From the NCBI GenBank assembly GCA_030608565.1, contig JAUWDY010000015.1, positions 1-40,058 on the forward strand: a stretch of 40,058 nucleotides of DNA, read 5' to 3'. Both the position numbers and the translations under genes were made by a program. Source of the stretch: Candidatus Bathyarchaeota archaeon (GTDB lineage Archaea > Thermoproteota > Bathyarchaeia > Bathyarchaeales > Bathyarchaeaceae). Below, piece by piece: positions 9,676 through 38,292 of this stretch. Position 1 is the first letter of the stretch. Each line of letters starts with the position of its first letter. The notes below the pieces were generated by a model. That model did no database searches. It was not told the origin of the DNA and worked only from the letters and a program-made list of their open reading frames with translations.

Positions 9676-11604
9676 ATGCCTGTTCACCTTCACACTACGA
9701 TATCGAGAGAAACTGATCAGATCATCGAGGAACTAGCTAAAACTTACGGAACAAAAAGCAGAGTTATTGAAAAAGCCCTCGAAACGATGTTAAGAGTGAA
9801 AAAAGTAGGTTCATGTGAAGACTGCTCAATCAAGGCACAAATCGAAGAGCAGAATAGATTAAGAGAAACCCTAGACCTAACCTCTGTTAGAAGAGAGATT
9901 CTTGACGAGCTGCTAAAAATAGCAGTTGGTGACCAAACATTTAATGGGTTTTTGAAAATCCAGAGAAACGAGGCACAAAATGTAATCGAACTACTCAGGA
10001 CCTCAATTAATTGGAAAACTCCAACGAGTTTTAGAGAATTGCTAACGGTTGTTGAAAAAATAAGGGATCTAACGAGATTGTACGAAATCACCTCATACAG
10101 TGAACTAGATAACACCGCGATTTTAAGGCCTAGAGTTTTCACGCGCATACCTGAACTTGTTGCCAGTCAATTATCAATTATCCTAGAAGGGATAGAAGTT
10201 CCATTCGATTTGAGATTAATGGGGAAAGACATAATTTTGAAAAAGATCCGAAATGACATTTACGCCTTAAGGAAACCAGATCATAGTCAACAGTTGTTTC
10301 AGCAGATGGAAGAAAGACTTTCACTCTTGAAGCCCTACTTGTCCAAGAACAATTTGGTTTTAGTTGGTCCAGCTTTTATGAACTGGGTTGAAAAAAATCT
10401 TGAAGGCCCCATTGCTGATTTAGGTGCAGTAATTGAAGATATTAGAGCTTTTGTGAAACCTGAAGAATTGCCTGAAGACCCAAACAAGTTTGTAGACGAG
10501 CTTTTCTCCGTAGGAGTGAAAATGAACTGGTTCAAAAATGTTAAAAAAACGAGGGAAACAGATGGAAACCTCAGAATCTCATTTCAAGCATCAACACCTT
10601 CAGTAACTAATATTGCAACAGTGACTTTTTCATTAATATTAGCCACGAAAGGGTGGAAGCTGATTAGTTACTCTACTGAATACGATAACGGAAACATGGA
10701 GATCAAATTTGTTGGAGAGGGAAAAAAGGATGTTTTGGATCAACTTGTGGAGCTTAATCTTTACCGCGTTGTAAGCGAACAATTTCTTGACACAGTTCTT
10801 GTCCCCAGAGACATCTTTGACTCCTTTGCAGCCAAGGTTTTCGAAAGCGATCGAAACAAGTTTGAAGACATATACAAAAACATGGGAGCCAGAATTGCAA
10901 ATGCAATACGTATGCTTGCTAAAAACGACTTGGAAAAAATCGAGCGACTATCAAGAAGCTTCATCCTAAAGAATTTGAATCAAGTCCAACCGGACGCAGA
11001 GATCAGATTTGTTGACAATGAACAAATCACAGTGATTCTTAAGAAGATTGACCCAGTTGTGATAAATAGTCAAAGAGTCTTGATAAAATCATTGCTCAGA
11101 TCTCTAGATTACGAAGTTTCCGTGACCGCATTTCAAAATCTTCTCAACTTCAAAATAAGGAGAGTGGAAAAACCTGCTTTAGAGCCCATACCCCGCAGTG
11201 CAGCGATGCAAACAATAGTAGATGCAATGTCAGCCAACTCGCCTGAAGAAGCCCTTCGACAGGTCAAACCCACGCTCGACGAACTGTTCCCGCTTGACTA
11301 CCCGTGGACAATAAGGGAGGTAGGAGAGCGCTTGATTGACATGTACAGAGAGATGGGAATAGAAGTTGGAATAGAATACTTCCAGGGAGGGTTCACACTT
11401 AAGTACAAAACATGTCCGTACTACAAACTCGTCAAAAACGGACAAAAAACATGGCTATGCAACTTTAGAAAAAAGGCCATAGAGCACATTTTATCTAGAG
11501 TAACACACGGAGGAAAAGGCAGAATAAAAACAATAAAATCTTTACTAAAAAACGAACATCCCTGCGAATATGCAATATTCCTAACGGAATTTCTGAAAGA
11601 ATAA
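9676..11604 (+). CDS. Large ribbon-helix-helix transcriptional regulator of unknown family, with C-terminal cysteine motif
   Basis: 642 residues. The N-terminus (about 1-40; HLHTTISRETDQIIEELAKT then SRVIEKALETML) fits a CopG/Arc-type ribbon-helix-helix DNA-binding fold. It is followed by a CxxC (C47, C50) and a long, mostly helical, unrecognised middle. The C-terminus has cysteines at about 580, 595 and 630 (TCPYYKL, WLCNF, PCEYAI), a pattern like small-molecule or metal-sensing output domains of archaeal regulators. No membrane segment was seen. GTTCA/TGAAC palindromes sit in its own promoter and in the gdh/KaiC-like promoter, so it is a candidate controller of nitrogen or redox genes here. 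The assignment rests on the N-terminal domain; the ligand is unknown. Confidence 0.6.
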   Translation: MPVHLHTTISRETDQIIEELAKTYGTKSRVIEKALETMLRVKKVGSCEDCSIKAQIEEQNRLRETLDLTSVRREILDELLKIAVGDQTFNGFLKIQRNEAQNVIELLRTSINWKTPTSFRELLTVVEKIRDLTRLYEITSYSELDNTAILRPRVFTRIPELVASQLSIILEGIEVPFDLRLMGKDIILKKIRNDIYALRKPDHSQQLFQQMEERLSLLKPYLSKNNLVLVGPAFMNWVEKNLEGPIADLGAVIEDIRAFVKPEELPEDPNKFVDELFSVGVKMNWFKNVKKTRETDGNLRISFQASTPSVTNIATVTFSLILATKGWKLISYSTEYDNGNMEIKFVGEGKKDVLDQLVELNLYRVVSEQFLDTVLVPRDIFDSFAAKVFESDRNKFEDIYKNMGARIANAIRMLAKNDLEKIERLSRSFILKNLNQVQPDAEIRFVDNEQITVILKKIDPVVINSQRVLIKSLLRSLDYEVSVTAFQNLLNFKIRRVEKPALEPIPRSAAMQTIVDAMSANSPEEALRQVKPTLDELFPLDYPWTIREVGERLIDMYREMGIEVGIEYFQGGFTLKYKTCPYYKLVKNGQKTWLCNFRKKAIEHILSRVTHGGKGRIKTIKSLLKNEHPCEYAIFLTEFLKE

Positions 11605-17653: not shown

Positions 17654-17896
17654 ATGAGCTCAGATACAAAACCGACTGAAGTTTTGGATGTAAGAGGAGA
17701 AGTGTGTCCATACCCAGATGTAAAGACTCAGAAGAAAGTGAAGAGCATGAAATCAGGCGAGATACTAGAGGTTCTCGTTGATTATCCGCTATCTGCGGAG
17801 CGAATACCGCGATCAATGGAAAAGTCTGGACATGAGGTTCTGAAAGTGGACAAGAAAGGGACGAGCGACTGGAGCATACTAATAAAGGTAAAGTAG
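17654..17896 (+). CDS. tusA: TusA-family sulfur carrier
   Basis: An 80-residue protein with the family signature [18 protein letters not shown]18 in CPYP is the persulfide-carrying cysteine. TusA proteins relay sulfane sulfur between desulfurases, DsrE/TusBCD-type partners and downstream enzymes in the cytoplasm. Here it heads an operon with a YedE transporter and three DsrE-family subunits, the usual sulfur-import and relay grouping. In sulfur-oxidizing prokaryotes tusA and dsrE genes also accompany Hdr-like complexes, and Hdr genes flank this operon on both sides. Length and motif are normal. Confidence 0.92.
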
Positions 17897-17909
17897 AGAG
17901 GTAGAAACC

Positions 17910-18983
17910 TTGACTGATGTAGAACTAATGCTTTATGGGCTAGTCGTAGGGGCAATCTTCGGCTTTGTACTGCAACGTGGACGTTTCTGTATGAACTCAG
18001 CATTCAGAGATATCCTAGTGATGAAAGAATATACGCTGCTTAAGGCGGTTGCACTGGCAATACTTGTTCAGATGATTGGCTTCCACCTCATGGCAACAAT
18101 GGGATGGATTAGCCTAAATCCTAAACCATTGTTGTGGGGTGCAATGATTGTTGGCGGTTTCATTTTCGGAATAGGAATGGTTTTGGCTGCGGGATGTGCC
18201 AGCGGAACAACCTATAGAGTCGGAGAAGGCATGGTGGGATCTTTCGTCGCATTACTCGGCTTAATGATTGGTGCTGTTGTAACCAAGGTAGGCGCTTTGG
18301 CGTGGCTAGCTGCGGACTTGAAATCTGGCATCTTCAAGACGATAACTACAGGTGATTTGGGAGTTGACCCTGGACCTTTACTTAAAGAAGGAAGCACAAG
18401 TCTAACATTAGCCAATATATTCGATTTAGATCCGTGGATTTTCGTGGCGATTATAGCTGTTGTCATTCTGGCTGCTCTAGTATGGAAACGTGGAGGCGAA
18501 GAAACCAAGGTGGAAGGAACACTGTCCGAAAGAATATTCAAGAAAGGTTGGAACTGGTGGGTCACAGGCATTGCTATAGGAATCATTGGCATGATAACCT
18601 TCTGGACTTTCAAGAACTATGCTTTAGGGATTTCCGGTGGATGGTTCGGTTTTCTGAATGCTTTGATAACCGGTGAACTTCACAGATTATCCCCAGAGAT
18701 GCTAAACTGGTTCACGTTCCTAGTAATTGGTGTGGTAGGTGGTGCTGCTATTGCCGCTGTCATCGCTGGTGAGTTTAAGTTAAGGGCACCAGATGCAAGG
18801 CGACTGTTACAACAGTTTGTCGGTGGATTACTTATGGGCATAGGCGCTATCATTGGAACAGCATGCAACATTGGACACATATTAAGTGGCATACCTCAAC
18901 TATCACTAGGCAGCATGCTCGGCGGGGCATTCATCATTCTAGGATGCTGGGTAACCGCTTACATCATGTTCATGAGAGGATAA
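17910..18983 (+). CDS. yedE: YeeE/YedE-family sulfur-compound transporter
   Basis: A 357-residue integral membrane protein with about nine to ten hydrophobic segments. The family-typical half-repeats are visible: GFVLQRGRFCMNSAFRD near the N-terminus, AAGCASGTTYRVGEG in the first half, and GTACNIGHILSG near the C-terminus. The cysteines in these re-entrant loops conduct thiosulfate or related sulfur species in characterised members. The start is TTG at 17910 with GAGGT upstream, 13 bases after tusA. It probably imports thiosulfate, or a persulfide-type substrate, that is handed to TusA. The substrate is inferred from family and context only. Confidence 0.9.
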   Translation: MTDVELMLYGLVVGAIFGFVLQRGRFCMNSAFRDILVMKEYTLLKAVALAILVQMIGFHLMATMGWISLNPKPLLWGAMIVGGFIFGIGMVLAAGCASGTTYRVGEGMVGSFVALLGLMIGAVVTKVGALAWLAADLKSGIFKTITTGDLGVDPGPLLKEGSTSLTLANIFDLDPWIFVAIIAVVILAALVWKRGGEETKVEGTLSERIFKKGWNWWVTGIAIGIIGMITFWTFKNYALGISGGWFGFLNALITGELHRLSPEMLNWFTFLVIGVVGGAAIAAVIAGEFKLRAPDARRLLQQFVGGLLMGIGAIIGTACNIGHILSGIPQLSLGSMLGGAFIILGCWVTAYIMFMRG

Positions 18984-18984
18984 G

Positions 18985-19332
18985 ATGCCAACCCTAGGTT
19001 TCCTCTTTTTTTCAGGACCTTACCAATCTGAAAGTCCAGAAACAACAATCGAACTAGCAAAAGCTGCATTGGAAAAAGGCATGAAAGTCAAGATCTTCTG
19101 CTACATGGATGCAGTTAACTGTGTGAAAACAGGGCAAAAGAAGGTTCCAGGCGTAATGAACATAGAAGAACAATTCAGAGAACTAATTGCGAAAGGAGCA
19201 GAAGTTCGCTTATGCACACTCTGCATGCTTGTACGAGGAACAAGAGACTACATTGAGGGCGCTAAGAGGGCTGGAACACCCGATGTTGCAGACATTGTGG
19301 AAGAATCCGACAGAGTTCTAGTAATCTTTTGA
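18985..19332 (+). CDS. dsrE: DsrE/TusD-like sulfur relay subunit
   Basis: A protein of 115 residues with the DsrE fold opening (LGFLFFSGPYQSESPETTIE), a conserved helix (ALEKGMKVKIFCYMDAV), and RLCTLCMLVRG, where C77 or C80 sits at the active-site position of TusD/DsrE. It begins one base after the yedE stop, so it is translationally coupled. It would accept persulfide sulfur from TusA or pass it on, as part of a DsrEFH-type heteromultimer with the next two genes. Confidence 0.82.
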   Translation: MPTLGFLFFSGPYQSESPETTIELAKAALEKGMKVKIFCYMDAVNCVKTGQKKVPGVMNIEEQFRELIAKGAEVRLCTLCMLVRGTRDYIEGAKRAGTPDVADIVEESDRVLVIF

Positions 19333-19346
19333 GGGGTGGAAGAAGC

Positions 19347-19682
19347 ATGTCTAAAAAGATTGTTGTTATATTGAGGAAGCCTCCACACGGCTCTCTGTTT
19401 CCAGCTGAGGGTTTAAGAGTGGCTGTAGCAATCAGTGCATCTGAAACTAAAGTTGTTTCCATAGGGGACAGCGTATATGCATTTCTGAAAAAAACTGACA
19501 TGACACTTTACAAGCACCATCTAGATTTCTTGAAGGAAACCGAAGTACCAGTACTGATTGACAAGGATTCGCTGGAAGGGCGTAAGCTAACTGAAGGAGA
19601 TTTGGTGGAGGGTGTCACGGTGAAAGAACGTGATGAAATCCTCAACGTAATAGCTGAAGCAGACGCTACGCTAACATTTTAG
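19347..19682 (+). CDS. dsrF: DsrF/TusC-like sulfur relay subunit
   Basis: A 111-residue protein from ATG 19347, with GGGGTGG shortly upstream; a TTG start at 19329 would overlap dsrE and add six residues. IVVILRKPPHGSLFPAEGLR and AVAISASETKVVSIGDSVYA match the TusC/DsrF half of the DsrE superfamily, with VLIDKDSLEGR before the last strand. It contains no cysteine, which is usual for this non-catalytic subunit. Its position between the DsrE- and DsrH-like genes supports the assignment. Confidence 0.8.
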   Translation: MSKKIVVILRKPPHGSLFPAEGLRVAVAISASETKVVSIGDSVYAFLKKTDMTLYKHHLDFLKETEVPVLIDKDSLEGRKLTEGDLVEGVTVKERDEILNVIAEADATLTF

Positions 19683-19692
19683 GTGATGCATT

Positions 19693-19995
19693 ATGGCTAA
19701 GATACTTTATTTCGTAACAGACATGGACCCAATGAGTATGAGACTTGCTTTAGAACATAAAGACAGTGAAGTTGGAATATGTCTGCTGCAAGATGCAGTT
19801 TACTTTGGATGCAAAGGAAGAAAAGGAAATGGAACACTGGTCGAAGCGAAAAAACGAGGTATCCGCGTCTTCGCGGCCAAGAAAGATGTTGAACTGCGAG
19901 GTTTGACGAGCATGCTTTACCCAGATATCAAGGTTCTGGACTATGGCGAAATAATAGACTTGGTCCTCGATTTCGAACGAATAGTCAACATTTAG
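19693..19995 (+). CDS. dsrH: DsrH/TusB-like sulfur relay subunit
   Basis: 100 residues, typical for TusB/DsrH. VGICLLQDAVYFGCKGR resembles the family core, and LDYGEIIDLVLDFERIVNI its C-terminal helix. Third of three adjacent DsrE-family genes, it completes an EFH trio. In characterised systems only the E and H subunits carry functional cysteines; here C31 and C40 are candidates. A T-rich terminator follows at once. Confidence 0.8.
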   Translation: MAKILYFVTDMDPMSMRLALEHKDSEVGICLLQDAVYFGCKGRKGNGTLVEAKKRGIRVFAAKKDVELRGLTSMLYPDIKVLDYGEIIDLVLDFERIVNI

Positions 19996-26656: not shown

Positions 26657-26869
26657 ATGGAAAAAAATGTGAGGAGCTTAGCCAAAAGTGTAACTTGGCG
26701 TGTAGTTGCAACTCTAACTACAATACTTTTAGTGTACTTGTTTACCGGAAATGTAGTTTTGAGTACAAGTGTTGGCGCTCTAGAATTTATGGTGAAAGCA
26801 GTTATTTATTATATACATGAGCGAGTATGGAACATGTCAAATTTTGGCAGAGAGAAATCATGTACATGA
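26657..26869 (+). CDS. DUF2061 small membrane protein
   Basis: About 70 residues from ATG 26657 (EKNVRSLAKSVTWRVVATLTT), the customary start of DUF2061 proteins; ATGs at 26618 and 26636 are also possible. There are two hydrophobic segments (TTILLVYLFTGNVVL and VGALEFMVKAVIYY), and it ends with IHERVW, the family signature. Function is unknown. It overlaps the convergent gene by 12 bases. The 193 bases between hdrB and this start hold nothing I can name. Confidence 0.7.
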   Translation: MEKNVRSLAKSVTWRVVATLTTILLVYLFTGNVVLSTSVGALEFMVKAVIYYIHERVWNMSNFGREKSCT

Positions 26870-27352
26870 AAAAGGGCATGTTTGACATTGTTTACACTTG
26901 CTGAATTCTAAAAGAGAAAATAGAGGTAACTTCACTTTTGGAATGTTGATTTTAAGAATTTCATTATTGCATCTTACAGTCATTTTTTCAACTTGTAAAT
27001 TTTTCATGGGCAGCTTTAGCTTTGTACATTCTTTTGAGCATATTTCTAGGCCGTCTACATGCGTGTGAATTACCACTTCCTGATTATTACAGTGGTGTTG
27101 CATCAAAACTGTAACATATTTGTCATCTTCGAAAACATCAATCAAAGGCTCCTCAGCCTGAGGAAGCGGAATCGTATTATTAGCTGAAGGGTTTGATTCT
27201 GAATGCTCTATAATGTATTTTTTTCTAAGAAGACTTTCAATAGGTTCAACCTTATTTGTTTCGCAGCAATTATCATCTTCAGCAATCTTTTTCACTAATG
27301 TACGGAGAAAAACGTCAATGTTACGTAGCCCTTCTTCAAAATCTTCCATCAA
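26858..27352 (-). CDS. Possible Hsp20/CS-fold protein with cysteine-rich tail
   Basis: 164 residues. The N-terminal third is acidic and helical. The middle (EEPLIDVFEDDKYVTVLMQ, then VDGLEI and EILKINIPKVKLP) has the strand pattern and ILKI-type ending of archaeal Hsp20-like proteins, but lacks a clear family fingerprint. The C-terminal end, CKQCQTCPFSC, is cysteine-rich and unusual for this fold; it could bind a metal or cluster. A further pair, CC, is near residue 30. The start ATG follows GAGGAG. A chaperone-like or redox-sensing role is speculative. Confidence 0.45.
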   Translation of the reverse strand: MMEDFEEGLRNIDVFLRTLVKKIAEDDNCCETNKVEPIESLLRKKYIIEHSESNPSANNTIPLPQAEEPLIDVFEDDKYVTVLMQHHCNNQEVVIHTHVDGLEICSKECTKLKLPMKNLQVEKMTVRCNNEILKINIPKVKLPLFSLLEFSKCKQCQTCPFSCT

Positions 27353-27476: not shown

Positions 27477-28541
27477 CTAGCCTTGCAGTGGTATGGTTCG
27501 TTCATGCTTTCTTATTTTGAGAATTTTTCCGATCTCTTTATCTGACTTCATCAAGGTAGTGTTAATTGCCAGCTTAGCAATCAATGCACCTTTGTCTGCG
27601 ATCTTGCTCAAGTTCGAAACTATTGTTCTCAAATAGGGAATTTCTGGAAGTTCGCGCATCTCTTGTTCAAACGCGCTCTCAAGAACATCGTGCATTTCTA
27701 ACAAGCTGTTTGCAATCTTCAGATCTCTTGTAAAAACGCAGTCTACAGCTTTCTGGAATATTGTTTGTGTCAATTCGCCTAGGTGATAAATCTTTTCAAG
27801 TGTTGCAGTGTTGATTGCCGCTTTGTATTTTTCAAGCTCAATTGCCCGTTTTGCTATGTCTTCAGAATAATCGGCAATCAGTTCGAGAAATTGTAGTATT
27901 AGACAGGTGCAAGGGATTAGAATGAGTTTAGTGAAACCGATTTTTAATGCTAGATCTCGTTTTCGCTGTGCCAAAACAAGCAATCGTGTTGCTAGAAAAT
28001 ATATCATGTCTGCTTCGTCTTCACGGTCAATTGCGTCCTTGGCTAGCGTGGTGTCTTTTTCCAAAAGGGCCTGCATTGCTTCACTATAGATTGTTGAGGC
28101 TATTAGAGATAAGCGTCTAATCAGCATATCCATTTGGAATTTGGTTGGGTCAATGGAGCATTGTATGAGAATGTTTTTCGGAGTTTCTTCTAATATGCCA
28201 AGCCCGATGAGTCTGCGAACGGTGCCCCTGACTTCTTCCACAAGCTCGCTTCTTATTCGATTTGTTGAAGTTATTCTGATGACATCTCGTCCAAGTATAT
28301 AGCTTCCAACAATCAGTCTTTCTAACAATCTTTTCTCGTCGCATGCATCAGCATTTATGATGTATTCCTCTGCCTCTTCTCTTCGAGCTAGATCGCTTGG
28401 TATTATCCGTAAGGTGCCGTCTATTTCCGGCGCGATGAAGACGAGGTCGCCTGGCTTTATATTGTTTCGTTTGATCCATTCGCTTGGAAGCGATACAGTC
28501 GTGGTTGAATAGCCTACCTTTTGAACTTTTCTGCTCTCCAT
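27477..28541 (-). CDS. AbrB-type DNA-binding/PhoU-domain regulator
   Basis: 354 residues. The first ~45 form an AbrB/SpoVT-like swapped-hairpin domain (RKVQKVGYSTTTVSLPSEW, NNIKPGDLVFI). The rest consists of two helical PhoU-like repeats with acidic metal-binding-type stretches (DREDEADMIYFLATR). This is the common archaeal 'phosphate uptake regulator' architecture, usually linked to Pst transport, but no phosphate transporter is visible here. It is divergent from the regulator at 28723 across 181 AT-rich bases containing an imperfect direct repeat, so it may regulate itself and its neighbour. Confidence 0.82.
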   Translation of the reverse strand: MESRKVQKVGYSTTTVSLPSEWIKRNNIKPGDLVFIAPEIDGTLRIIPSDLARREEAEEYIINADACDEKRLLERLIVGSYILGRDVIRITSTNRIRSELVEEVRGTVRRLIGLGILEETPKNILIQCSIDPTKFQMDMLIRRLSLIASTIYSEAMQALLEKDTTLAKDAIDREDEADMIYFLATRLLVLAQRKRDLALKIGFTKLILIPCTCLILQFLELIADYSEDIAKRAIELEKYKAAINTATLEKIYHLGELTQTIFQKAVDCVFTRDLKIANSLLEMHDVLESAFEQEMRELPEIPYLRTIVSNLSKIADKGALIAKLAINTTLMKSDKEIGKILKIRKHERTIPLQG

Positions 28542-28555
28542 ACGATCACCTTGTA

Positions 28556-28677
28556 GTATTTACTATTATATTTTCTGTGCGATTTATTATATATCTTTTC
28601 CCTTTATGCCATTTTTAAATCAAGATGCCTAGAGTATATACTGTTATATTCTCTATATGCACTAACTATATATTTTT
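28556..28677. promoter_or_regulatory. Divergent promoter region with imperfect direct repeat
   Basis: 28556-28599 and 28634-28677 share GTATxTACTxTTATATTxTCT at their left halves (19 of the first 23 bases agree) and AT-rich right halves. TATATAT boxes serve both directions. The two copies, 78 bases apart, could be binding sites for the AbrB-domain protein or for the ribbon-helix-helix protein. Confidence 0.45.
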
Positions 28678-28722: not shown

Positions 28723-29316
28723 ATGTCTGAATGGAAAACCGTAAGTATAAGACAAGAACTCATAAAGGAGATCGAAAAAGCACGTAAAACAGGTCGTTAC
28801 CGAAGCACATCAGAATTCGTTTCAGAAGCCATTCGACTACGCTTGGAAGAACTTATGCGTGTTGGAGGAATTCCAGTAGAAAAACGCAAGAGATATCTTG
28901 AAGTGCCGGAGCAGCTGCTTTACACACCGAAACATACGTGGGCGCAAATAACGCCTGAAGGAAACATAAGGGTTGGTCTATCAGACTACGCACAAGGGCA
29001 CCTAGAAGGGATAGCCTACATTTACACAGAACTTATGGGAAAAGAAGTCAAGAAGATGGAGCCCTTTGGTGTGGCTGAAACATGGATGTTCATGTTTGAC
29101 TTGTACGCCCCAGTCAGCGGCAAAATCGTCAAATTCAATGAAAACCTCAGAAATGAACCGCACCTAATCAATGAAAAACCCTACGATGAAGGATGGATAG
29201 TAGAGATCAAACCCAAAAACTCGCTAACTCTGGAGCAGGAACTAAAAGACCTACTCAGCTTAAGGCAATACAAGAAGTGGACAAGTAAGCTTGAAGGCCG
29301 GATACGAGTAAAATAG
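28723..29316 (+). CDS. Ribbon-helix-helix regulator fused to a lysine-less glycine-cleavage-H-like domain
   Basis: 197 residues. 1-45 is a ribbon-helix-helix domain (TVSIRQELIKEIEKA, RSTSEFVSEAIRLRLEEL). From ~66 to 165 lies a clear H-protein/lipoyl-domain homologue: LYTPKHTWAQI, GLSDYAQGHLEGIAYI, DLYAPVSGKIV and the PYDEGWIVEIKP ending. In real H-proteins the lipoylated lysine sits in ESVKAVSD; here the same place reads ETWMFMFD, with M122 where the lysine should be, so it cannot be lipoylated in the usual way. The domain was probably recruited as a sensor or interaction module. It lies between two Hdr clusters, next to a palindrome before the NfnB-like operon. ATG 28723 follows AAAGGAGA. 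Confidence 0.85.
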   Translation: MSEWKTVSIRQELIKEIEKARKTGRYRSTSEFVSEAIRLRLEELMRVGGIPVEKRKRYLEVPEQLLYTPKHTWAQITPEGNIRVGLSDYAQGHLEGIAYIYTELMGKEVKKMEPFGVAETWMFMFDLYAPVSGKIVKFNENLRNEPHLINEKPYDEGWIVEIKPKNSLTLEQELKDLLSLRQYKKWTSKLEGRIRVK

Positions 29317-29325
29317 TGATCTCCA

Positions 29326-29350
29326 ATTTCCCCTTTTTCTTCCCTTTTTA
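29326..29350 (+). terminator. T-rich terminator
   Basis: TTTCCCCTTTTTCTTCCCTTTTTA follows the stop of the ribbon-helix-helix/H-domain gene. Confidence 0.45.
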
Positions 29351-29372
29351 TGCTATACATAAACCAAGAGTG

Positions 29373-29398
29373 ACTGAGATGCATTAATATATCTCAGT
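29373..29398 (+). promoter_or_regulatory. Palindromic operator overlapping the promoter of the 29437 operon
   Basis: ACTGAGAT and ATCTCAGT are perfect 8-base arms around ten bases that include the TATA-like TTAATATA. Binding here would block TBP. The gene begins about 40 bases downstream (GTG 29437). The regulator encoded just upstream is an obvious candidate to bind it. Confidence 0.55.
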
Positions 29399-29436: not shown

Positions 29437-30717
29437 GTGGCAACCAAAAACAGCTTATATGTGAAGAGGAAGTTGCCGCCGTGCAGCGCTGCATGCCCAG
29501 CACATGTAAACGTTCAAGGGTATGTTTCTCTGATTCAAAAAGGCGAATTCAGGGAAGCTGTCGAACTCATAAGAAAAGATATGCCTTTTCCAGCAATTTG
29601 TGGAAGAGTTTGCTTTGCCCCATGTGAAAAAGCCTGTGCAAGAAAAAATGTTGACCAAGCAGTGGCGATACGTTCGCTTAAAAGAACAGTTGCTGACGTT
29701 GAACGAGAACAAGGGCGCGTTAGAGGAGAACCCATACCAAGGAGATATGACAAAAAGATAGCCATTATCGGAGCCGGACCAGCTGGACTTGCCGCAGCTT
29801 ACGACCTTGTCAAGCTTGGTTATCCTGTTACTGTTTTTGAGCGTATGCCCGAAGCAGGAGGAATGGTACGATATCGAATACCTGATGCACTCCTTGAGAG
29901 ATTTGTTGTGGCCAATGAGATAGCATACATTCAAGACTTGGGTGTGGAAATTAGGTGTAATGTTGAATTTGGGAAAGACACAAACCTTGACACTTTGCGA
30001 AACGAAGGATACGCAGCGACATTCATAGCTATTGGAAAGCTGTCGGAAACCTCCTCTTTACCTCCAGAACTTTTGAGTGAAGAATCAGGAACTTCCATAA
30101 TACTGGCTAGTCCAATAACCTTGGAAACCAGAATACGTGGGGTTTTCGCTGGAGGCGACGCAACTAAAACCAAACCTGCAGGCATTATTGAGGCTGTTGG
30201 TGCTGGGAAACATGCTGCTGTACAAATTCATCGTTACTTGAGCAGTCAAGACTTGAGAGCTGGAAGAGAAGAAATTGAGGAGACAGTATGGATTAAAAAT
30301 TGGGAAATACTTGATAAAAAGCCGCGAAGGTACATCGCCAAGAAGGGCGAACCCAAACTAAGAATTAGCTTCGAAGAAGTCGTGGAAGCTCTGGAAAAAG
30401 TCAAACAGAAAGCAAGGTTTGAGGCATTCCGATGCCTCGCTTGTGGACCATGCACCGAGTGCCTCGCAGAGATAGGTCTTTGTGAAACGGATAAGCCGCT
30501 AATCGATGAAAACTTGTGTACTGGCTGCAATATATGCGCGTCAATATGCCCGTTCGGAGCAATAAGCAAGGATGAAAAAGGAGTAGCCCAAGTTGATGAA
30601 GAACTCTGCAAAGGATGTGGAATCTGTGCTGCTCATTGCCCTGAAAACGCAATTACTATGGAACGTCTAACGAACGAACAGATTATGATCTATGCGCTAG
30701 CTGGCTTTCGGGGATAG
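29437..30717 (+). CDS. NfnB/GltD-like flavoprotein lacking the NAD(P)H domain, with C-terminal ferredoxin
   Basis: 426 residues. The N-terminal half is GltD/NfnB-like: PCSAACPAHVNVQGYVSLIQ (C16, C20), ICGRVCFAPCEKAC (C55/59/63/67) and the FAD motif GAGPAG (112-117). After FIAIGKLSE (about 200) the sequence runs almost directly into GVFAGGDATKTKPAG. The ~130-residue NADPH-binding Rossmann domain that normally sits between is missing (compare GGGNSAMDSA in the protein at 16091). A cysteine stretch, CLACGPCTECLAEIGLC, and two 4Fe-4S motifs (CTGCNICASICP, CKGCGICAAHCP) are appended. It therefore looks like an FAD/iron-sulfur relay without pyridine nucleotide. It starts the operon of bimodular HdrAs, so it could feed them ferredoxin-level electrons. 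Start GTG at 29437. Confidence 0.82.
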   Translation: MATKNSLYVKRKLPPCSAACPAHVNVQGYVSLIQKGEFREAVELIRKDMPFPAICGRVCFAPCEKACARKNVDQAVAIRSLKRTVADVEREQGRVRGEPIPRRYDKKIAIIGAGPAGLAAAYDLVKLGYPVTVFERMPEAGGMVRYRIPDALLERFVVANEIAYIQDLGVEIRCNVEFGKDTNLDTLRNEGYAATFIAIGKLSETSSLPPELLSEESGTSIILASPITLETRIRGVFAGGDATKTKPAGIIEAVGAGKHAAVQIHRYLSSQDLRAGREEIEETVWIKNWEILDKKPRRYIAKKGEPKLRISFEEVVEALEKVKQKARFEAFRCLACGPCTECLAEIGLCETDKPLIDENLCTGCNICASICPFGAISKDEKGVAQVDEELCKGCGICAAHCPENAITMERLTNEQIMIYALAGFRG

Positions 30718-30721
30718 TCTC

Positions 30722-31492
30722 ATGAGTTTTGGAAAACCGAAGATTGTTTGTTTCGTCTGCAATTGGGCCTTCACTGAACAGGAATTAGCTGTCAGCAGAA
30801 TACGAAAAGTTGCTGACATGAGTGTTGTCCGGGTGATGTGTGTTGGAAGGATAGACCCTGTCATAATGCTTGAAACATTCATAAAAGGCGCGGACGGTGT
30901 ATTACTGGTTGGTTGCGCTCCTCCGGATTGTCATTTTGTTGAAGGCAATGTTTATGCCGAACTCACAGTTAAAGTGTTAAAGAAGCTGCTTGTTCTAGCA
31001 GATTTAGAACCTGAACGCCTAGAGGTACGTTGGGTTTCACCCGTAGAAGAAGTAAGATTCACCGGAATCATTGAAGATTTTGCCAAGCAACTAAAAAAGC
31101 TTGGGCCTTCACCATTAGCGAAAGAAAAATATGATGTAAACATTCTTGAGGATGTTTCAGCAGCCAAAAACGCGGTTGCAGACTTCCGTCTAAGGGCTTT
31201 GATTGGAAAAGAAAAAGAGTTAACAAGGAGCGTAAATGCTTACGGCGAAAGAATTTCACAAATCGAATTTAACGCTTTGCTGGATGAGGTTGTCAAAGCA
31301 GAGTTCATTAGACACAAGATACTTGTTTTAGCTAGAAAAAAACCGTTTTCAGTTAGAGAATTAGCTGAAGTTCTTAACATAAAACCAGCTGTTGTGCTTC
31401 GACACATTTTGAACATGCGTAGAAAAGGGATGATAGCTTTAGCCAACATTGATGGAGCGACCCCCCTCTACGAAGCCTTGGAGGTTCGATAA
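30722..31492 (+). CDS. MvhD-like iron-sulfur protein fused to a winged-helix domain (variant cysteines)
   Basis: 256 residues. 1-~130 is MvhD-like (VMCVGRIDPVIMLE, GADGVLLVGCAPPDCHF, EPERLEVRWVS). The first cysteine pair is shifted: VCFVCNWAF (C10, C13) instead of CNWC (C13, C16) in the paralogue at 34499, and the SYAGADLAG loop is altered. A linker with helical segments follows, then a winged helix (about 200-256: FSVRELAEVLNIKPAVVLRH, RRKGMIAL). MvhD carries electrons into HdrA. The DNA-binding-like tail could make it a redox-responsive regulator, or be only a protein-docking domain. Five bases separate it from the upstream flavoprotein gene and two from the downstream HdrA gene. Confidence 0.82.
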   Translation: MSFGKPKIVCFVCNWAFTEQELAVSRIRKVADMSVVRVMCVGRIDPVIMLETFIKGADGVLLVGCAPPDCHFVEGNVYAELTVKVLKKLLVLADLEPERLEVRWVSPVEEVRFTGIIEDFAKQLKKLGPSPLAKEKYDVNILEDVSAAKNAVADFRLRALIGKEKELTRSVNAYGERISQIEFNALLDEVVKAEFIRHKILVLARKKPFSVRELAEVLNIKPAVVLRHILNMRRKGMIALANIDGATPLYEALEVR

Positions 31493-31494
31493 AT

Positions 31495-34400
31495 ATGGCG
31501 GACGGAAAAATTGGGGCGGTTCTTGTGGTGGGTGGCGGAGTGGCTGGAGTACAAGCTGCCTTGGACATTGCAGACTCGGGTTTCAAAGTCTATTTGATCG
31601 ATCGGGCACCGAGCATAGGCGGAGTGATGGCGCAACTTGACAAAACATTTCCAACGAATGACTGTTCAATGTGCATTCTTGCACCCAAACTTGTGGAGGC
31701 TGGGAGACAGCCGAATATAACCCTAATAACTAACGCGGAAGTCACGGAGTTAAGTGGCAAGGCTGGAAACTTCGAAGTAAGAATTCGAAAGCAGAGTCGC
31801 TACATAAACGAAGAGAAATGCAACGGTTGTGGGTTATGTGCACAAAAATGTCCAGTCGAAGCAGTGGACGCATACAATAGAGGCCTAAACGATAGAAGTG
31901 CCATCTACATCGAATATCCGCAAGCGGTTCCGTTAAAATACATGATAGACCGGGAAAAATGCATCGGTTGCGGCATATGCCAAGAAATTTGTAGAGCAGA
32001 AGCAGTTGAATACGAACAAGAGGACACGGAGACAACCCTAAAAATAGGCTCGATTATACTGGCTCCGGGCTTTACCTCATTTGACCCTAGGCTCAAAACA
32101 GAATACGGTTATGGACGTTTCCAAAACGTAGTTACAAGCATAGAATTTGAGCGAATATTAAATGCCTCAGGCCCATACGGCGGATTGATTCTGAGACCCT
32201 CAGAGGGTGAAATCCCAAGGAAAATCGCTTTTATTCAGTGCGTAGGCTCGCGTGACGCTCAGCTTGGAAACAATTACTGTTCTGCTGCCTGCTGCATGTA
32301 TAGCATCAAAGAAGCGATTATCGCTAAAGAACATGTTCCCATAGAACTGGAATGTACAATCTTTTACATGGACATAAGGGCATACGGAAAGGAATTCGAT
32401 GCTTATTACAACCGCGCCATGGAAGAACATGGCGTAAGGTTTGTGAGGTCAAGAGTTGCAGACGTGGGGGAAGACCCTCTAACAAGCAACCTTTTCGTGC
32501 ATTATGTGGAAGACGGAGAACCGAAAACCGAAGAATTCGGCATGGTGGTCCTATCCGTCGGAATGCGCCCTCCAGAAAATGTGGAAAAACTGGCGGAAGT
32601 TTTGGGAATAGGACTTAACCGGTACGAATTTTGCCAGACAGATACCTTTTCACCAATAGAAACCTCAAAACCAGGTATATTTGTGTGCGGAGCGTTTGCT
32701 GCTCCCAAGGATATTCCTGAAAGCGTTGCACAAGCAAGCGGTGCAGCAGCAAAGGCGATAGCCGTAATTGCTTCTGAAAGAGGGAAACTAATAACCGTTA
32801 AAGAGTATCCGCCAGAAAGGGATGTAAGCCGAGAAGAACCACGCATAGGCGTATTCATCTGTCATTGTGGAATAAACATAGGTGGAATAGTAAACGTTCC
32901 AGAAGTTGTAGAACACGCCAAGAAACTGCCAGATGTCGTTTATGCAGAAGAGAATCTTTACACATGCTCACAAGACACTCAAGTGAGAATTCGAGAAAAA
33001 ATAAGAGAGCTTAATCTTAACCGTGTGATTGTGGGGGCTTGCACTCCGCGCACCCACGAACCTCTGTTTAGAGAAACACTTCGTGAACAGGGCTTAAACA
33101 CCTACTTGTTTGAGATGGCGAATATCCGTGATCAATGCAGTTGGGTGCACATGCACGAACCAGAGAGAGCAACAGAAAAGGCCAAAGACCTAGTTCGATC
33201 GGTTGTTGCAAAAGCCAGATTATTGGAACCATTAAAAAAGCCGGTAACAAGCGTAATCCCCGTCGGCTTAGTCATAGGCGGCGGAGTATCTGGAATGACC
33301 ACTGCCTTAGAGCTGGCAAGACAAGGTTTTGAAGTTCACCTGGTAGAGAGGGCGAAGGAACTTGGTGGCCACCTACGCCATATCTATTACCTACTAGGAT
33401 CTGAAAACCCGCAGGAAATGTTAAGATCCATTATTGAGGATGTTTCTGAAAATGAGAGGATTCATGTTCACCTCAACACAGCAATCGTAGATGTTAAGGG
33501 ATATGTTGGTAACTTCACGACAATCATTCGTTCTGGTGGAAATGAAAAGCAAATTGAACACGGCATCATCGTAGTGGCAACAGGAGCCACGGAATATGAG
33601 CCAACCGAATACCTCTACGGAATTGATTCCAGAGTTTTGACACAACGAGAATTGGAAGAGAGGCTAGCTAAGGGTCAATTCAACGCCAAAACCGTTGTTA
33701 TGATTCAGTGTGTTGGCTCAAGAAATGAAGAGAGACCAAACTGCTCGCGTATATGTTGTTCTCAGGCGATAAAGAACGCATTAAAAATCAAGGAGTTATC
33801 TCCTGAAACCGAGGTTTATGTACTGTACAAGGACATCAGGACCTATGGGTTTAAAGAGGACTATTACCGCGAAGCGGCAGACAAGGGAGTTTTATTCATA
33901 CGTTATGATGATGAACACAAGCCCCGAGTCACTCGAGAAAATGGAAAGCTGATGGTTTTAGCTTGGGCTCCCATCCTAAAAACATGGGTTCCTGTAGAAC
34001 CGGACATTCTAGCGTTGAGCGTGCCTGCAGTTCCAAATGCCAATAACGAACACTTGGCAAGAATGCTGAAAGTTCCTTTAACCAAGGACGGATTTTTCTT
34101 GGAAGCCCACATGAAGCTCCGGCCACTGGATTTTGCGACAGATGGCATTTTCCTTTGCGGGCTGGCACATTGGCCGAAACCTATCGAAGAGAGCATTTCG
34201 CAGGCGTGTGGAGCTGCGACCAGAGCTGCGACCATACTGTCTAAAAAAACACTAGAAGTTGAAGGGATAGTTGCACACGTTGATGAGGACCTTTGTGTTG
34301 GATGCGGACTTTGCATAACTCTTTGTCCATACAGTGCCATAGAGAAGGATGAAACAGGAATAGCTAGGGTGCAGGAAGTCCTCTGCAAAGGTTGCGGGAC

Positions 34401-34506
34401 TTGTGGAGCAAGCTGTCCTAAGAGAGCTATCACCATGCAACAGTTTACGGACGCACAAATTGTCGCTCAGGGACTTGCCGTTTTAAGGGGGGTTGTCCAT
34501 GGTTGA
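31495..34506 (+). CDS. hdrA: Bimodular HdrA-HdrA' fusion, copy 1
   Basis: 1003 residues, where a single HdrA is about 650-800. Module 1 (1-~430) starts at VVGGGVAG (11-18), with NDCSMCILAPK (C57, C60), an inserted ferredoxin (CNGCGLCAQKC, CIGCGICQEIC) and CVGSRDAQ. Module 2 (from ~450) opens with the N-terminal HdrA domain (FICHCGIN, NLYTCSQD, ACTPRTHEP, QCSWVHMHEP), a second FAD motif (VIGGGVSGM, near 595) without inserted ferredoxin, and ends with two 4Fe-4S motifs (CVGCGLCITLC near 934; CKGCGTCGASC near 964). Two FADs per chain suggest an extra bifurcation or relay site. Its split counterpart is 11810+13127. It overlaps the following MvhD gene by eight bases. Confidence 0.92.
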   Translation: MADGKIGAVLVVGGGVAGVQAALDIADSGFKVYLIDRAPSIGGVMAQLDKTFPTNDCSMCILAPKLVEAGRQPNITLITNAEVTELSGKAGNFEVRIRKQSRYINEEKCNGCGLCAQKCPVEAVDAYNRGLNDRSAIYIEYPQAVPLKYMIDREKCIGCGICQEICRAEAVEYEQEDTETTLKIGSIILAPGFTSFDPRLKTEYGYGRFQNVVTSIEFERILNASGPYGGLILRPSEGEIPRKIAFIQCVGSRDAQLGNNYCSAACCMYSIKEAIIAKEHVPIELECTIFYMDIRAYGKEFDAYYNRAMEEHGVRFVRSRVADVGEDPLTSNLFVHYVEDGEPKTEEFGMVVLSVGMRPPENVEKLAEVLGIGLNRYEFCQTDTFSPIETSKPGIFVCGAFAAPKDIPESVAQASGAAAKAIAVIASERGKLITVKEYPPERDVSREEPRIGVFICHCGINIGGIVNVPEVVEHAKKLPDVVYAEENLYTCSQDTQVRIREKIRELNLNRVIVGACTPRTHEPLFRETLREQGLNTYLFEMANIRDQCSWVHMHEPERATEKAKDLVRSVVAKARLLEPLKKPVTSVIPVGLVIGGGVSGMTTALELARQGFEVHLVERAKELGGHLRHIYYLLGSENPQEMLRSIIEDVSENERIHVHLNTAIVDVKGYVGNFTTIIRSGGNEKQIEHGIIVVATGATEYEPTEYLYGIDSRVLTQRELEERLAKGQFNAKTVVMIQCVGSRNEERPNCSRICCSQAIKNALKIKELSPETEVYVLYKDIRTYGFKEDYYREAADKGVLFIRYDDEHKPRVTRENGKLMVLAWAPILKTWVPVEPDILALSVPAVPNANNEHLARMLKVPLTKDGFFLEAHMKLRPLDFATDGIFLCGLAHWPKPIEESISQACGAATRAATILSKKTLEVEGIVAHVDEDLCVGCGLCITLCPYSAIEKDETGIARVQEVLCKGCGTCGASCPKRAITMQQFTDAQIVAQGLAVLRGVVHG

Positions 34507-35275
34507 GTTTGAACCGAAAATCATAGGTTTTCTATGCAATTGGTGTTCTTACGCAGGCGCAGACCTGGCTGGCGTAAGCCGAATACAATACCCTCCAAAC
34601 ATTAGAGTCATTAGAGTCATGTGTAGCGGCAGAGTCGACCCAGTCATTGTTTTGGAAATGTTCGCAAACGGCGCTGACGGGGTCATGGTGATGGGCTGCC
34701 ACCCGGGAGAATGCCACTATCTAGAGGGAAACCTCTACGCAGAGTGGAGAATCAAAATGTTAAAGAAACTCATGGCGTGTGCGGGTCTTGAACCAGAACG
34801 CCTACGACTTGAATGGGTTTCTGCCGCAGAAGGCTCACGATTCGCAAATATGGTCAAAGATTTCACAAATCAACTGAAAGGCTTGGGGCCATCTCCTCTC
34901 GCTAGTGAAAAACCTGATGAGACCATATTGGCTAGCATAAGAGCAGCCGAAAGAGCAGCGGGCACTTCTAGGCTGCGGACACTGGTGGGGAGGGAGAAAG
35001 AGCTAGCTGAAGAGGAAAACGTTTACGGCGAGAAAGTGACGCAAGAAGAGTTTGATAAGTTGATGGATGAAAGCGTCAAAGAAGAGCATCTCCGAAGCAG
35101 AATCTACCTTCTGACAAAAGACAAGTCAATGTCAGTTAAAGAACTAGCTAAACATCTGAGCGTAGACACACGTGTAGTGTTGCGTCATATAGTTGTTCTG
35201 AGACGCAAGGGGTTGCTTGCAATGGACAGAATCGAAGGCATCAGTCCACTTTATGTCGCATTGGAGGCGAGATGA
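34499..35275 (+). CDS. MvhD-like iron-sulfur protein fused to a winged-helix domain
   Basis: 258 residues from ATG 34499, preceded by a run of Gs. The MvhD part is canonical: GFLCNWCSYAGADLAGVSR (C13, C16), VMCSGRVDP and GCHPGECHY. The C-terminal ~60 residues form a winged helix (MSVKELAKHLSVDTRVVLRH, RRKGLLAMDRIEG), ending LYVALEAR, nearly the same ending as the paralogue at 30722. The linker LRTLVGREKELAEEE also matches it. It should connect the flanking HdrA-A' proteins electronically; whether the tail binds DNA is unknown. Stop and next start overlap (ATGATG). Confidence 0.88.
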   Translation: MVEFEPKIIGFLCNWCSYAGADLAGVSRIQYPPNIRVIRVMCSGRVDPVIVLEMFANGADGVMVMGCHPGECHYLEGNLYAEWRIKMLKKLMACAGLEPERLRLEWVSAAEGSRFANMVKDFTNQLKGLGPSPLASEKPDETILASIRAAERAAGTSRLRTLVGREKELAEEENVYGEKVTQEEFDKLMDESVKEEHLRSRIYLLTKDKSMSVKELAKHLSVDTRVVLRHIVVLRRKGLLAMDRIEGISPLYVALEAR

Positions 35276-38200
35276 TGGTAGATAAGGTCGGTGCGGTACT
35301 CGTAGTTGGTGGTGGAATCGCTGGAATACAAGCAGCCTTAGATCTAGCAGACTCGGGATTCAGAGTCTATGTAGTAGAGGATACGCCCAGCATAGGAGGG
35401 ACGATGACACAGCTGGACAAGACATTCCCCACCAACGACTGCGCTATGTGCATCCTCGCTCCAAAGCTTGTCAGAGCTGGAAGACACGCCAATGTTCATC
35501 TTATAACAAATGCGGAAATAAAGAAAGTTAAGGGTGAACCGGGGAACTTCAAGGTTACTATAACGAGAAGAGCTCGATATGTGGATGAAGAGAAATGCAC
35601 GGGATGCGGCGTTTGTGCCCAAGAATGTCCAGTTGAAGCAATAGACGAGTATGAGCAGGGGTTGAGCCGGAGAAGTGCGGTTTTCGTCAAGTACTTGCAG
35701 GCTGTTCCCTCGACGTTCGCCATTGACAGAGAAAAATGCATTGGATGTGGAACATGCCAAGAAGTGTGTAGAGCCGACGCAATCATATATGAGGAGAAGG
35801 ATGAGGATGTTGAGCTAAGTGTGGGTGCTATTATACTTGCACTTGGGTTCGAAGAGTTCGATCCAAGCCTGAAAAGCGAGTATGGTTATAGCCGATATTC
35901 TAACGTTGTTTCAAGCATAGAATTTGAGCGTATTCTAAGCGCCACTGGACCTTATGGCGGAACAGTTCTGCGTCCTTCTGATGGCGATCTTCCCCGCAAG
36001 ATCGCATTCATTCAATGTGTTGGTTCAAGAGACGCCAAGCTTGGAAACAACTATTGCTCCTCAGCTTGTTGCATGTACGCTATTAAAGAAGCAGTTATAG
36101 CGAGGGAGCACAATCCGAACCTTCAATGTACTATTTTTTTCATGGACATCCGCGCCTATGGAAAAGAGTTTGACGCCTACTACAGCAGAGCAGAAGAGGA
36201 ATACGGAGTTAGATTTGTTCGATCTCGAATTTCCGACGTTAAGAAAGTGCTTGGGTCACAAAATCTCATAGTGAGATATGTAGAAGATGGAGAGCCAAAA
36301 GAGGAAGAGTTCAATCTTGTCGTGCTGTCGGTGGGAATGAAACCGCCAAAACACGTTGAGGAATTGGCGAAAACTATCGGTATCAAGCTGAACAAGTACA
36401 ACTTCTGCTCCACCGAAACCTTCTCGCCGCTAGCCACCTCTCGTCTAGGCGTCTTTGTTTGTGGCGCGTTCTCTTCTCCAAAAGATATCCCCGAGAGCGT
36501 TGCTCAGGCAAGTGGAGCCGCGGCGAGGGCAGGCAGCTTGATCGCCACTGGAAGGGGGAAGCTAACAGTTGCGAAGAAACTTCCACCAGAGATAGAAGTA
36601 TCCGATAAGGAACCCCGTGTCGGAGTCTTCGTGTGTCACTGCGGCACGAATATCGGCGGAATAGTGAATGTACCAGAGGTGGTGGAGTATGCAAAAACCT
36701 TGCCAAGCGTAGTGTACGCAGAGCACAATCTGTACACATGCTCACAAGACACACAAAGGACGATACGAGAGAAGATAAAGGAACATAACCTGAACCGCGT
36801 AGTGGTGGCGTCTTGCACTCCAAGAACACATGAGCCACTTTTCAGAGAAACCATCAGAGAAGCCGGACTCAACATCTACCTCTTCGAGATGGCTAACATT
36901 CGTGATCAATGTAGCTGGGTGCACATGCACGAGCCTGAGAAAGCGACGGAGAAGGCTAAAGACTTAGTTCGGTCGATCGTCGCCAAGGCTCGCTTGCTGA
37001 AACCATTGAAAAAACCGATGATCGATGTTACCCCCGTGGGCTTGGTCATTGGCGGAGGCTTATCCGGAATGACTGCCTCGTTGGAACTGGCGAAACAAGG
37101 CTTTGAGGTTCACTTGGTCGAGAAGGAGAAGGAACTGGGCGGAAACCTACGCCATATACACTATATGCTTGGAAGCGAGGACCCACAAGAACGGTTAAGG
37201 TCAATTATCAAAGAGGTTACTGAAAACGAGAAAATCCACGTTCACCTGGATGCAGAAGTCGCAGATATCGAAGGATACGTAGGAAACTTTGAAACAACAC
37301 TGACTCGTGGTAGCGACAAGAAAGGAATCAACCATGGCATTGTCATAGTTGCTACTGGAGCCGTCGAATATAAGCCAACTGAATATCTTTACGGAATTGA
37401 TTCTAGAGTTTTGACACAACGTGAATTGGAAGAGAAAATTGGAGAGGGCGAATTCAAAGCTAGGACCGTTGTTATGATTCAGTGTGTCGGGTCTAGAAAT
37501 GATGAACGCCCAAACTGTTCGCGGATATGTTGCGTCCAGGCGGTTAAGAACGCGTTAAAGATTAAGGAGTTAAGTCCGGAAACGGATGTTTACATTTTGT
37601 ATAAAGACATTAGAACATACGGGTTTAACGAGGATTATTACCGTAAAGCTGCGGATGAAGGCGTTTTGTTTATACGCTATGATGATGACCACAAACCCAA
37701 AGTTACTCAAGAAAACGGAACCCTCAAAATATTGGCGATGGCACCCGTCTTAAAAACATGGTTCCCGATTGAACCTGATCTTCTAGTTTTGAGCGCAGCC
37801 ACTATCCCCAATCCAGATAATGAACGCATAGCACAAATGTTGAAGGTTCCACTCACTAAGGATAGATTCTTCTTGGAAGCACATATGAAACTTCGCCCAG
37901 TCGATTTCGCGACTGATGGCGTGTTCCTATGCGGATTGGCACACTCACCAAAGCTAATTGAAGAAAGTATTTCACAAGCATGCGGAGCCGCAGCTCGCGC
38001 TGCCACCATATTATCCAAGAAGAGGTTAGAGGTAGAGGGCGCTATAGCCAACGTCAACGAGGACTTGTGCAGCGGATGCAGAATATGCGAGGCAGTTTGC
38101 GAGTATAGTGCCATTGAAATGAAGGAAAAGGATGGAAAACTCGTGTCGAGCGTGCTTGAGGCTTTGTGTAAAGGATGTGGTGTTTGTGGCTCCACTTGTC

Positions 38201-38292
38201 CTACTGGAGCGATAAGTATGCTTCATTTCACAGACGAAGAGATACTTGCTCAAGTTAGAGCAGCATTAAAGGAGGAAAAGAAATATGACTGA
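35272..38292 (+). CDS. hdrA: Bimodular HdrA-HdrA' fusion, copy 2
   Basis: 1006 residues, collinear with the product of 31495. Module 1 has VVGGGIAG, NDCAMCILAPK, CTGCGVCAQEC and CIGCGTCQEVC. Module 2 has FVCHCGTN, SCTPRTHEP, VIGGGLSGM and the C-terminal motifs CSGCRICEAVC and CKGCGVCGSTC. In the first of these the proline after the fourth cysteine is replaced by Glu (CEYSAIE), which is minor. All cysteines of copy 1 are kept, so both copies are probably functional. Differences concentrate in linkers and loops, suggesting distinct partners: copy 1 lies between two MvhD-winged-helix proteins, copy 2 leads to plain MvhD, HdrC and HdrB. Confidence 0.92.
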   Translation: MMVDKVGAVLVVGGGIAGIQAALDLADSGFRVYVVEDTPSIGGTMTQLDKTFPTNDCAMCILAPKLVRAGRHANVHLITNAEIKKVKGEPGNFKVTITRRARYVDEEKCTGCGVCAQECPVEAIDEYEQGLSRRSAVFVKYLQAVPSTFAIDREKCIGCGTCQEVCRADAIIYEEKDEDVELSVGAIILALGFEEFDPSLKSEYGYSRYSNVVSSIEFERILSATGPYGGTVLRPSDGDLPRKIAFIQCVGSRDAKLGNNYCSSACCMYAIKEAVIAREHNPNLQCTIFFMDIRAYGKEFDAYYSRAEEEYGVRFVRSRISDVKKVLGSQNLIVRYVEDGEPKEEEFNLVVLSVGMKPPKHVEELAKTIGIKLNKYNFCSTETFSPLATSRLGVFVCGAFSSPKDIPESVAQASGAAARAGSLIATGRGKLTVAKKLPPEIEVSDKEPRVGVFVCHCGTNIGGIVNVPEVVEYAKTLPSVVYAEHNLYTCSQDTQRTIREKIKEHNLNRVVVASCTPRTHEPLFRETIREAGLNIYLFEMANIRDQCSWVHMHEPEKATEKAKDLVRSIVAKARLLKPLKKPMIDVTPVGLVIGGGLSGMTASLELAKQGFEVHLVEKEKELGGNLRHIHYMLGSEDPQERLRSIIKEVTENEKIHVHLDAEVADIEGYVGNFETTLTRGSDKKGINHGIVIVATGAVEYKPTEYLYGIDSRVLTQRELEEKIGEGEFKARTVVMIQCVGSRNDERPNCSRICCVQAVKNALKIKELSPETDVYILYKDIRTYGFNEDYYRKAADEGVLFIRYDDDHKPKVTQENGTLKILAMAPVLKTWFPIEPDLLVLSAATIPNPDNERIAQMLKVPLTKDRFFLEAHMKLRPVDFATDGVFLCGLAHSPKLIEESISQACGAAARAATILSKKRLEVEGAIANVNEDLCSGCRICEAVCEYSAIEMKEKDGKLVSSVLEALCKGCGVCGSTCPTGAISMLHFTDEEILAQVRAALKEEKKYD

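Follow-up and report, generated by a model that had tools for sequence, protein, structure and literature searches.

A gene in the window, by which we mean the whole stretch of 40,058 nucleotides of Candidatus Bathyarchaeota archaeon DNA analyzed here, encodes a ribbon-helix-helix (RHH) segment joined to a domain resembling the H-protein of glycine cleavage (GcvH), and raises the question of what the fold of a lipoate carrier is doing when attached to a DNA-binding domain (Table 1). The open reading frame has an ATG start and a GGAG ribosome site. A first-pass annotation of the DNA had described the product as an H-protein-like domain joined to an RHH domain, and both profile searches and structure prediction bear this out. 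The Pfam GCV_H profile matches residues 65-187 of the window protein with an E-value of 2.9e-28, and the gcvH equivalog profile TIGR00527 gives 101.8 bits, below its cut-off of 115.85. The structure prediction that the annotation had recommended produced an AlphaFold2 model with a mean pLDDT of 83 and values of about 86-94 per block across most of the H part; comparison of this part with lipoylated and apo H-protein structures gave target TM values of 0.78-0.94, mostly 0.83-0.94, which confirms the H-protein fold. The Pfam RHH_1 match in the window protein covers residues 6-43 (E 6.6e-4) at 20.0 bits against a cut-off of 20.5, and the same profile matches 24 of 47 family members at E<0.01, with a best E-value of 4e-6. 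The strand residues K5, T6, S8 (R/K in other clades) and R10 (R or K) are conserved in the family. Two members of f1 tandem pairs, scanned singly against Pfam (L087), gave no RHH match. On these profile matches, we consider the RHH assignment firm at the level of the family.

Table 1. Positions of the features of the RHH-H locus in the window.
Feature	Position	Strand	Remarks
Small protein, third frequent neighbor	26858..27352	-	25 loci; N-terminal helices and Hsp20/CS-like beta domain
AbrB(MazE)-PhoU protein, divergent neighbor	27477..28541	-	41/42 loci with upstream context
Palindrome TAGTATTTACTA	28554..28565	.	Sole exact copy in genome; near AbrB-PhoU start codon
Second operator-like copy, GAGTATATACTG	28632..28643	.	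79 nt before RHH-H ATG
RHH-H fusion gene, 197 aa	28723..29316	+	RHH ~3-46, linker ~47-62, GcvH-fold ~63-190
Ribbon-helix-helix DNA-binding domain, residues 6-46	28738..28860	+	Pfam and family conservation
ETWMF, residues 119-123, former lipoyl-lysine hairpin tip	29077..29091	+	W121 in 47/47, K in 0/47
Oligo-T stretch past RHH-H stop, probable archaeal terminator	29317..29355	+	T-runs recur in relatives
TTAATATAT, conserved TATA box of Hdr operon	29384..29392	+	Inside palindrome 29373-29398
First Hdr-operon genes: GltD-like/ferredoxin protein, FlpD(MvhD)-winged-helix protein	29437..31492	+	Usual downstream neighbors

The residue that would carry lipoate is missing from the whole family. A phmmer comparison with solved structures pairs the segment ETWMFMFD with the lipoyl-lysine segment ESTKSVSD of solved H-proteins, so that Met122 occupies the position of the lipoylated lysine, as the first-pass annotation had proposed. 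The tabulation of this residue over homologues, which it had put forward as a check, gives the same answer: among 47 aligned Lys-less proteins, of which two have no RHH domain, position 122 is M in 34, W in 8, P in 3, L in 1 and N in 1, and K in none, whereas the lipoyl position is K in each of the 19 canonical H-proteins from this class. The tripeptide V-K-A is replaced by W-M-F in the main clade or by W-W-F in the tandem clade, and W121 is invariant. The Glu of the H-E-W motif (equivalent to position 72), which touches the lipoyl arm in the pea H-protein, is found in 14 of 19 canonical H-proteins and is replaced by T, I, V, M or L in all 47 Lys-less proteins. The mean column identity of the hairpin is the highest of any segment (0.81, with 0.915 for ETWMF), and that of the linker is the lowest (0.44). 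With no segment better conserved than the hairpin, this site is under constraint for a new role rather than in decay, and ETW(M/W)F makes up a near-invariant hydrophobic tip at the former lipoyl site.

The window's genome, which is 98.5% complete, has a separate canonical H-protein with the segment ESVKAVSD and a lipoate ligase on contig C41, and the glycine-cleavage P genes on contig C42; this ligase is the only lipoate ligase match in the genome, and there is none in the window. As the canonical H-protein, the ligase and the P genes all lie elsewhere, the capacity for lipoylation is present and it is the normal site that is missing from the fusion. The earlier suggestion that lipoate carriers gave rise to the H domain is supported, and the domain is incapable of lipoylation at the normal site. 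The well-kept fold and surrounding motifs might instead be taken to mean that lipoate is attached to the H domain at another site or that the domain is active in glycine cleavage, with an incidental RHH part; we give this hardly any credence, given that no member has a lysine at position 122, that the arm-cleft Glu is lost, and that the same genome supplies a canonical H-protein.

Some 45 RHH-H fusions were found among 257 Bathyarchaeia genomes; they are confined to a single order, in families f1, f4, f5 and f6, and some stand as tandem pairs. Beyond this order, no full-length fusion turned up in 398 phylum genomes searched with a profile. One fusion, with 60% identity, lies outside Bathyarchaeia in a Candidatus Jingweiarchaeum (DPANN) bin (L048), which belongs to the DRTY-6 sample series, the source of a Bathyarchaeia bin as well. 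In the tree all canonical H domains fall on one side of a branch with 100/99 support and the Lys-less domains on the other. Matches to the ETWMF codon pattern outside the class, in the 398 phylum genomes, were also considered; as none of the nine loci examined showed similarity to H-proteins, we attribute these matches to chance. Two standalone Lys-less H-like proteins have no recognizable RHH domain (L055:7917-8411, with ETWMF, and L102:238-723, with ETWNF). Both sit on long branches of the tree, and they may precede or follow the RHH fusion. Immediately upstream of the L055 protein is TAGTACTTACCA, which has two mismatches to the palindrome of the RHH-H promoter described below.

The constant neighbor of the fusion gene is not Hdr but the divergent gene for an AbrB-PhoU protein, as counted from the gene maps of the fusion loci; its products are 50-86% identical to the window's copy. 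The sole exception among the 42 loci is genome G183, which has no AbrB-PhoU ortholog (best match 29-33%). In the 26 genomes of the order that have no fusion, the best AbrB-PhoU matches are paralogs of at most 33% identity, save for a single match of 53% in G189, and RHH-H and AbrB-PhoU nearly always occur, or are missing, together. The G189 match is a frameshifted AbrB-PhoU remnant beside a shortened Hdr cluster from which RHH-H is gone. At this locus (L222, G189:C13) the remnant lacks the AbrB part and adjoins shortened HdrA/HdrC genes, in an apparent joint decay of the RHH-H/AbrB-PhoU module. The resemblance of the third frequent neighbor to Hsp20/CS proteins is confined to its C-terminal half and is a weak match.

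RHH and MazE/AbrB folds are frequent in antitoxins, going by Pfam names, and the homologous module in the DPANN bin has a different context; the two genes could thus be an antitoxin-like or selfish addiction pair in which the H domain neutralizes. We hold this to be very improbable, as the conserved neighborhood contains no toxin gene, redox genes accompany the module across an archaeal order, and the H domain is strongly constrained.

The promoter between the two divergent genes contains a conserved palindrome, TAGTATTTACTA, with the core GTA-TT-TAC. In the window the copy GAGTATATACTG takes the place held by the motif in most relatives, where the distance from palindrome to RHH-H ATG is about 74-80 nt, or 97 nt in part of f4. 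Sequences within one mismatch of TAGTATTTACTA occur in 14 of 41 upstream regions, compared with 0.4% of dinucleotide shuffles. The exact 12-mer is present as one copy in each of seven genomes (the window's and six relatives), always in this promoter, and is absent from three further relatives. In 19 of 41 loci the motif has 3-4 mismatches, a level that shuffles reach as well, which makes the exact consensus lineage-limited. A regulon search of the seven genomes found no exact second copy, and within one mismatch the window's own genome has five other matches, fewer than the 21 of the reversed control, for which reason a regulon cannot be claimed. As is typical of RHH regulators, RHH-H has a conserved palindrome in the promoter of its own gene; since the exact palindrome occurs nowhere else in the seven family-bearing genomes, its confinement to this locus argues for self-regulation over control of Hdr genes.

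Either protein could be the reader of this candidate operator, and one case separates them: G183, without an AbrB-PhoU ortholog, keeps the variant CAGTATTTACTG at -79, which favors RHH-H. Were the palindrome to belong to AbrB-PhoU, RHH-H would be a recruited accessory and its H domain a docking module for AbrB-PhoU. The near-perfect co-occurrence of the two genes, their divergent layout, their joint loss in G189 and the location of one window copy some 13 nt from the AbrB-PhoU start codon are all compatible with such an arrangement, but the motif holds its usual place in G183 and hardly varies in its distance to the RHH-H ATG, and we consider the arrangement rather doubtful.

The location of the fusion gene between Hdr gene clusters, as first annotated, is correct for the window. 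Among the 43 loci with downstream context, again counted from locus gene maps, Hdr genes follow in 32, either directly or after a permease gene. Of 163 genomes of the order, 31 have both the fusion and the FlpD-HTH gene, 10 the fusion only, 11 the Hdr gene only and 111 neither (Fisher p 9e-16, with genomes taken as independent and phylogeny not corrected). The remaining 11 of the 43 loci have no downstream Hdr genes, and in most of these a TauE/SafE permease comes first. This permease (TSUP family) is the first downstream gene in ten loci, followed by Hdr genes in two and by NuoE/F/G-HoxYH-like hydrogenase genes in several; in the f5 lineage it stands directly after the fusion gene, and a TauE-like gene lies beyond AbrB-PhoU in two more loci (that of L103 judged by eye from sequence). 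In f5 the permease is followed by a conserved 124-aa protein with no Pfam family (L075:8244-8618 and orthologs). A search for HdrA in the Jingweiarchaeum bin, whose completeness is unstated, returned only ferredoxin-domain matches.

The first-pass annotation had named a palindrome at 29373-29398 as the operator through which the fusion would control the adjacent Hdr operon. This palindrome exists, but we reject it as a conserved operator, because its arms are not conserved and it surrounds the Hdr TATA box: the outer arms form 8 of 8 pairs in the window, 7 of 8 in one close relative and 2-4 in most others, and the TTAATATAT core is common to relatives, unlike the arms around it. T-runs follow the RHH-H stop in most single-copy loci, which suggests that RHH-H ends its own transcript. 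The Hdr linkage is therefore real as synteny, is not obligatory, and has no operator behind it; since no regulon with the exact motif extends beyond the locus, the case for control of Hdr genes is one of synteny.

These observations leave as a tentative possibility that RHH-H serves specifically to regulate the Hdr operon next to it, sensing that operon's redox or metabolite state through its H domain. Such a role would account for the downstream Hdr genes in most loci and for the co-occurrence of RHH-H with FlpD-HTH across the order. It is harder to reconcile with the poor arm pairing of the proposed operator in most relatives, with a conserved palindrome in a different place, of which the Hdr promoter holds no second exact copy, with the eleven loci that lack downstream Hdr genes and the DPANN bin without HdrA, and with the T-runs and separate TATA box, which suggest separate transcription. 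Of the original proposal, then, the adjacency to Hdr genes holds in most relatives, while the operator is unconserved and the linkage dispensable; the survey of gene neighborhoods, which the annotation had put forward as a check, was similarly mixed, with Hdr genes downstream in 32 loci and none in eleven.

Any link to sHdr sulfur oxidation would be tentative: the Hdr genes close by are scored as HdrA2/Mvh types, although thiosulfate-transport-like and Tus genes are also present in the window. Just upstream of the window's Mvh-Hdr cluster, at 17654-19995, is a row of TusA/YedF-like, TsuA/YeeE thiosulfate-transporter-like and TusD/C/B-like (DsrE/F/H) genes, which do not recur in other RHH-H loci within the flanks examined. 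Because these genes do not recur, the sulfur theme draws on TauE/SafE and one genome, and the sulfur context of the fusion is suggestive only.

Since the attachment point has been lost, a DNA-binding domain has been joined, and a second regulator and a control site accompany the gene, we read the fusion as a gene regulator built from an old carrier. We put the probability at roughly 0.6 that RHH-H is a one-component regulator whose RHH domain acts on the palindrome, which is autoregulated together with AbrB-PhoU, and which uses its unlipoylated H-fold as a sensor. The N-terminal RHH domain would dimerize and bind TAGTATTTACTA in the promoter shared with AbrB-PhoU, and RHH-H would thereby regulate its own gene and probably its partner's as well. 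The ETW(M/W)F tip may bind a ligand or a partner protein and so switch DNA binding. RHH-H and AbrB-PhoU would work as one module, with the adjacent redox and sulfur genes (Hdr-Mvh, the TauE/SafE permease and the Hox-type hydrogenase) as its likely output. A more specific version, which we think unlikely, is that the hydrophobic tip docks on an enzyme that reads lipoylated H-proteins, and that RHH-H and AbrB-PhoU report the state of this enzyme to the DNA; the enzyme may be a lipoate ligase, a disulfide reductase or an Hdr/sulfur-transfer enzyme. If this were true, a cofactor-carrier fold would have become a sensor through deletion of the site that held the cofactor.

Fused sensors have precedents among RHH regulators, and those of the NikR type combine an RHH domain with a C-terminal ligand-binding domain. 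By analogy, RHH one-component regulators would be the closest systems in their working: the fusion likewise has an RHH domain and a putative C-terminal sensor domain, a palindromic candidate operator and predicted autoregulation, but in place of the NikR sensor it has a GcvH fold. The GcvH-L proteins of macrodomain/sirtuin operons are lipoylated and ADP-ribosylated. Like the fusion they are H-protein paralogs outside glycine cleavage; unlike it they have no DNA-binding domain, and the TM value of GcvH-L (PDB 5a35) to the fusion model is 0.49 when query-normalized. GcvH itself (PF01597, TIGR00527; PDB 1onl, 3klr, 3ab9) shares its fold and sequence with the H domain; the fusion differs in having neither lipoyl Lys nor arm-cleft Glu, in its hydrophobic tip and DNA-binding domain, and in lying on another contig than the P-protein genes. 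LbpA of sHdr sulfur oxidation receives its lipoate from a machinery of its own, sLpl(AB)-LipS1/S2, which is encoded along with the shdr-lbpA clusters (PMC10332631). LbpA and the fusion are both GcvH homologs encoded beside Hdr-like genes, but the fusion has no attachment Lys and the sole ligase match of its genome is on another contig. As the lipoyl lysine, defining for both GcvH and LbpA, was tested for and is absent, the fusion is a member of neither.

In the open-licence papers searched, we found none on GcvH-DNA-binding fusions or on a Lys-less GcvH family, and nothing relevant on TauE of Bathyarchaeia; within this literature the GcvH fold is not described as the sensor of a one-component regulator. 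We have so far found no account of the transcriptional control of electron bifurcation and sulfur flux in Bathyarchaeia, and this control can be tested on the module through a defined protein pair, a specific candidate operator and single residues (W121, M122 and R10).

Two further features of the window deserve mention. A 642-aa protein at 9676-11604, with no Pfam or NCBIfam family match, starts with an RHH-like stretch, MPVHLHTTISRETDQIIEELAKTYGTKSRVIEKALETML. At 30722-38292 there is a tandem duplication of an FlpD(MvhD)-winged-helix gene and a gene for a double HdrA-like protein of about 1000 aa; this FlpD gene, with its own C-terminal HTH, may also be regulatory.
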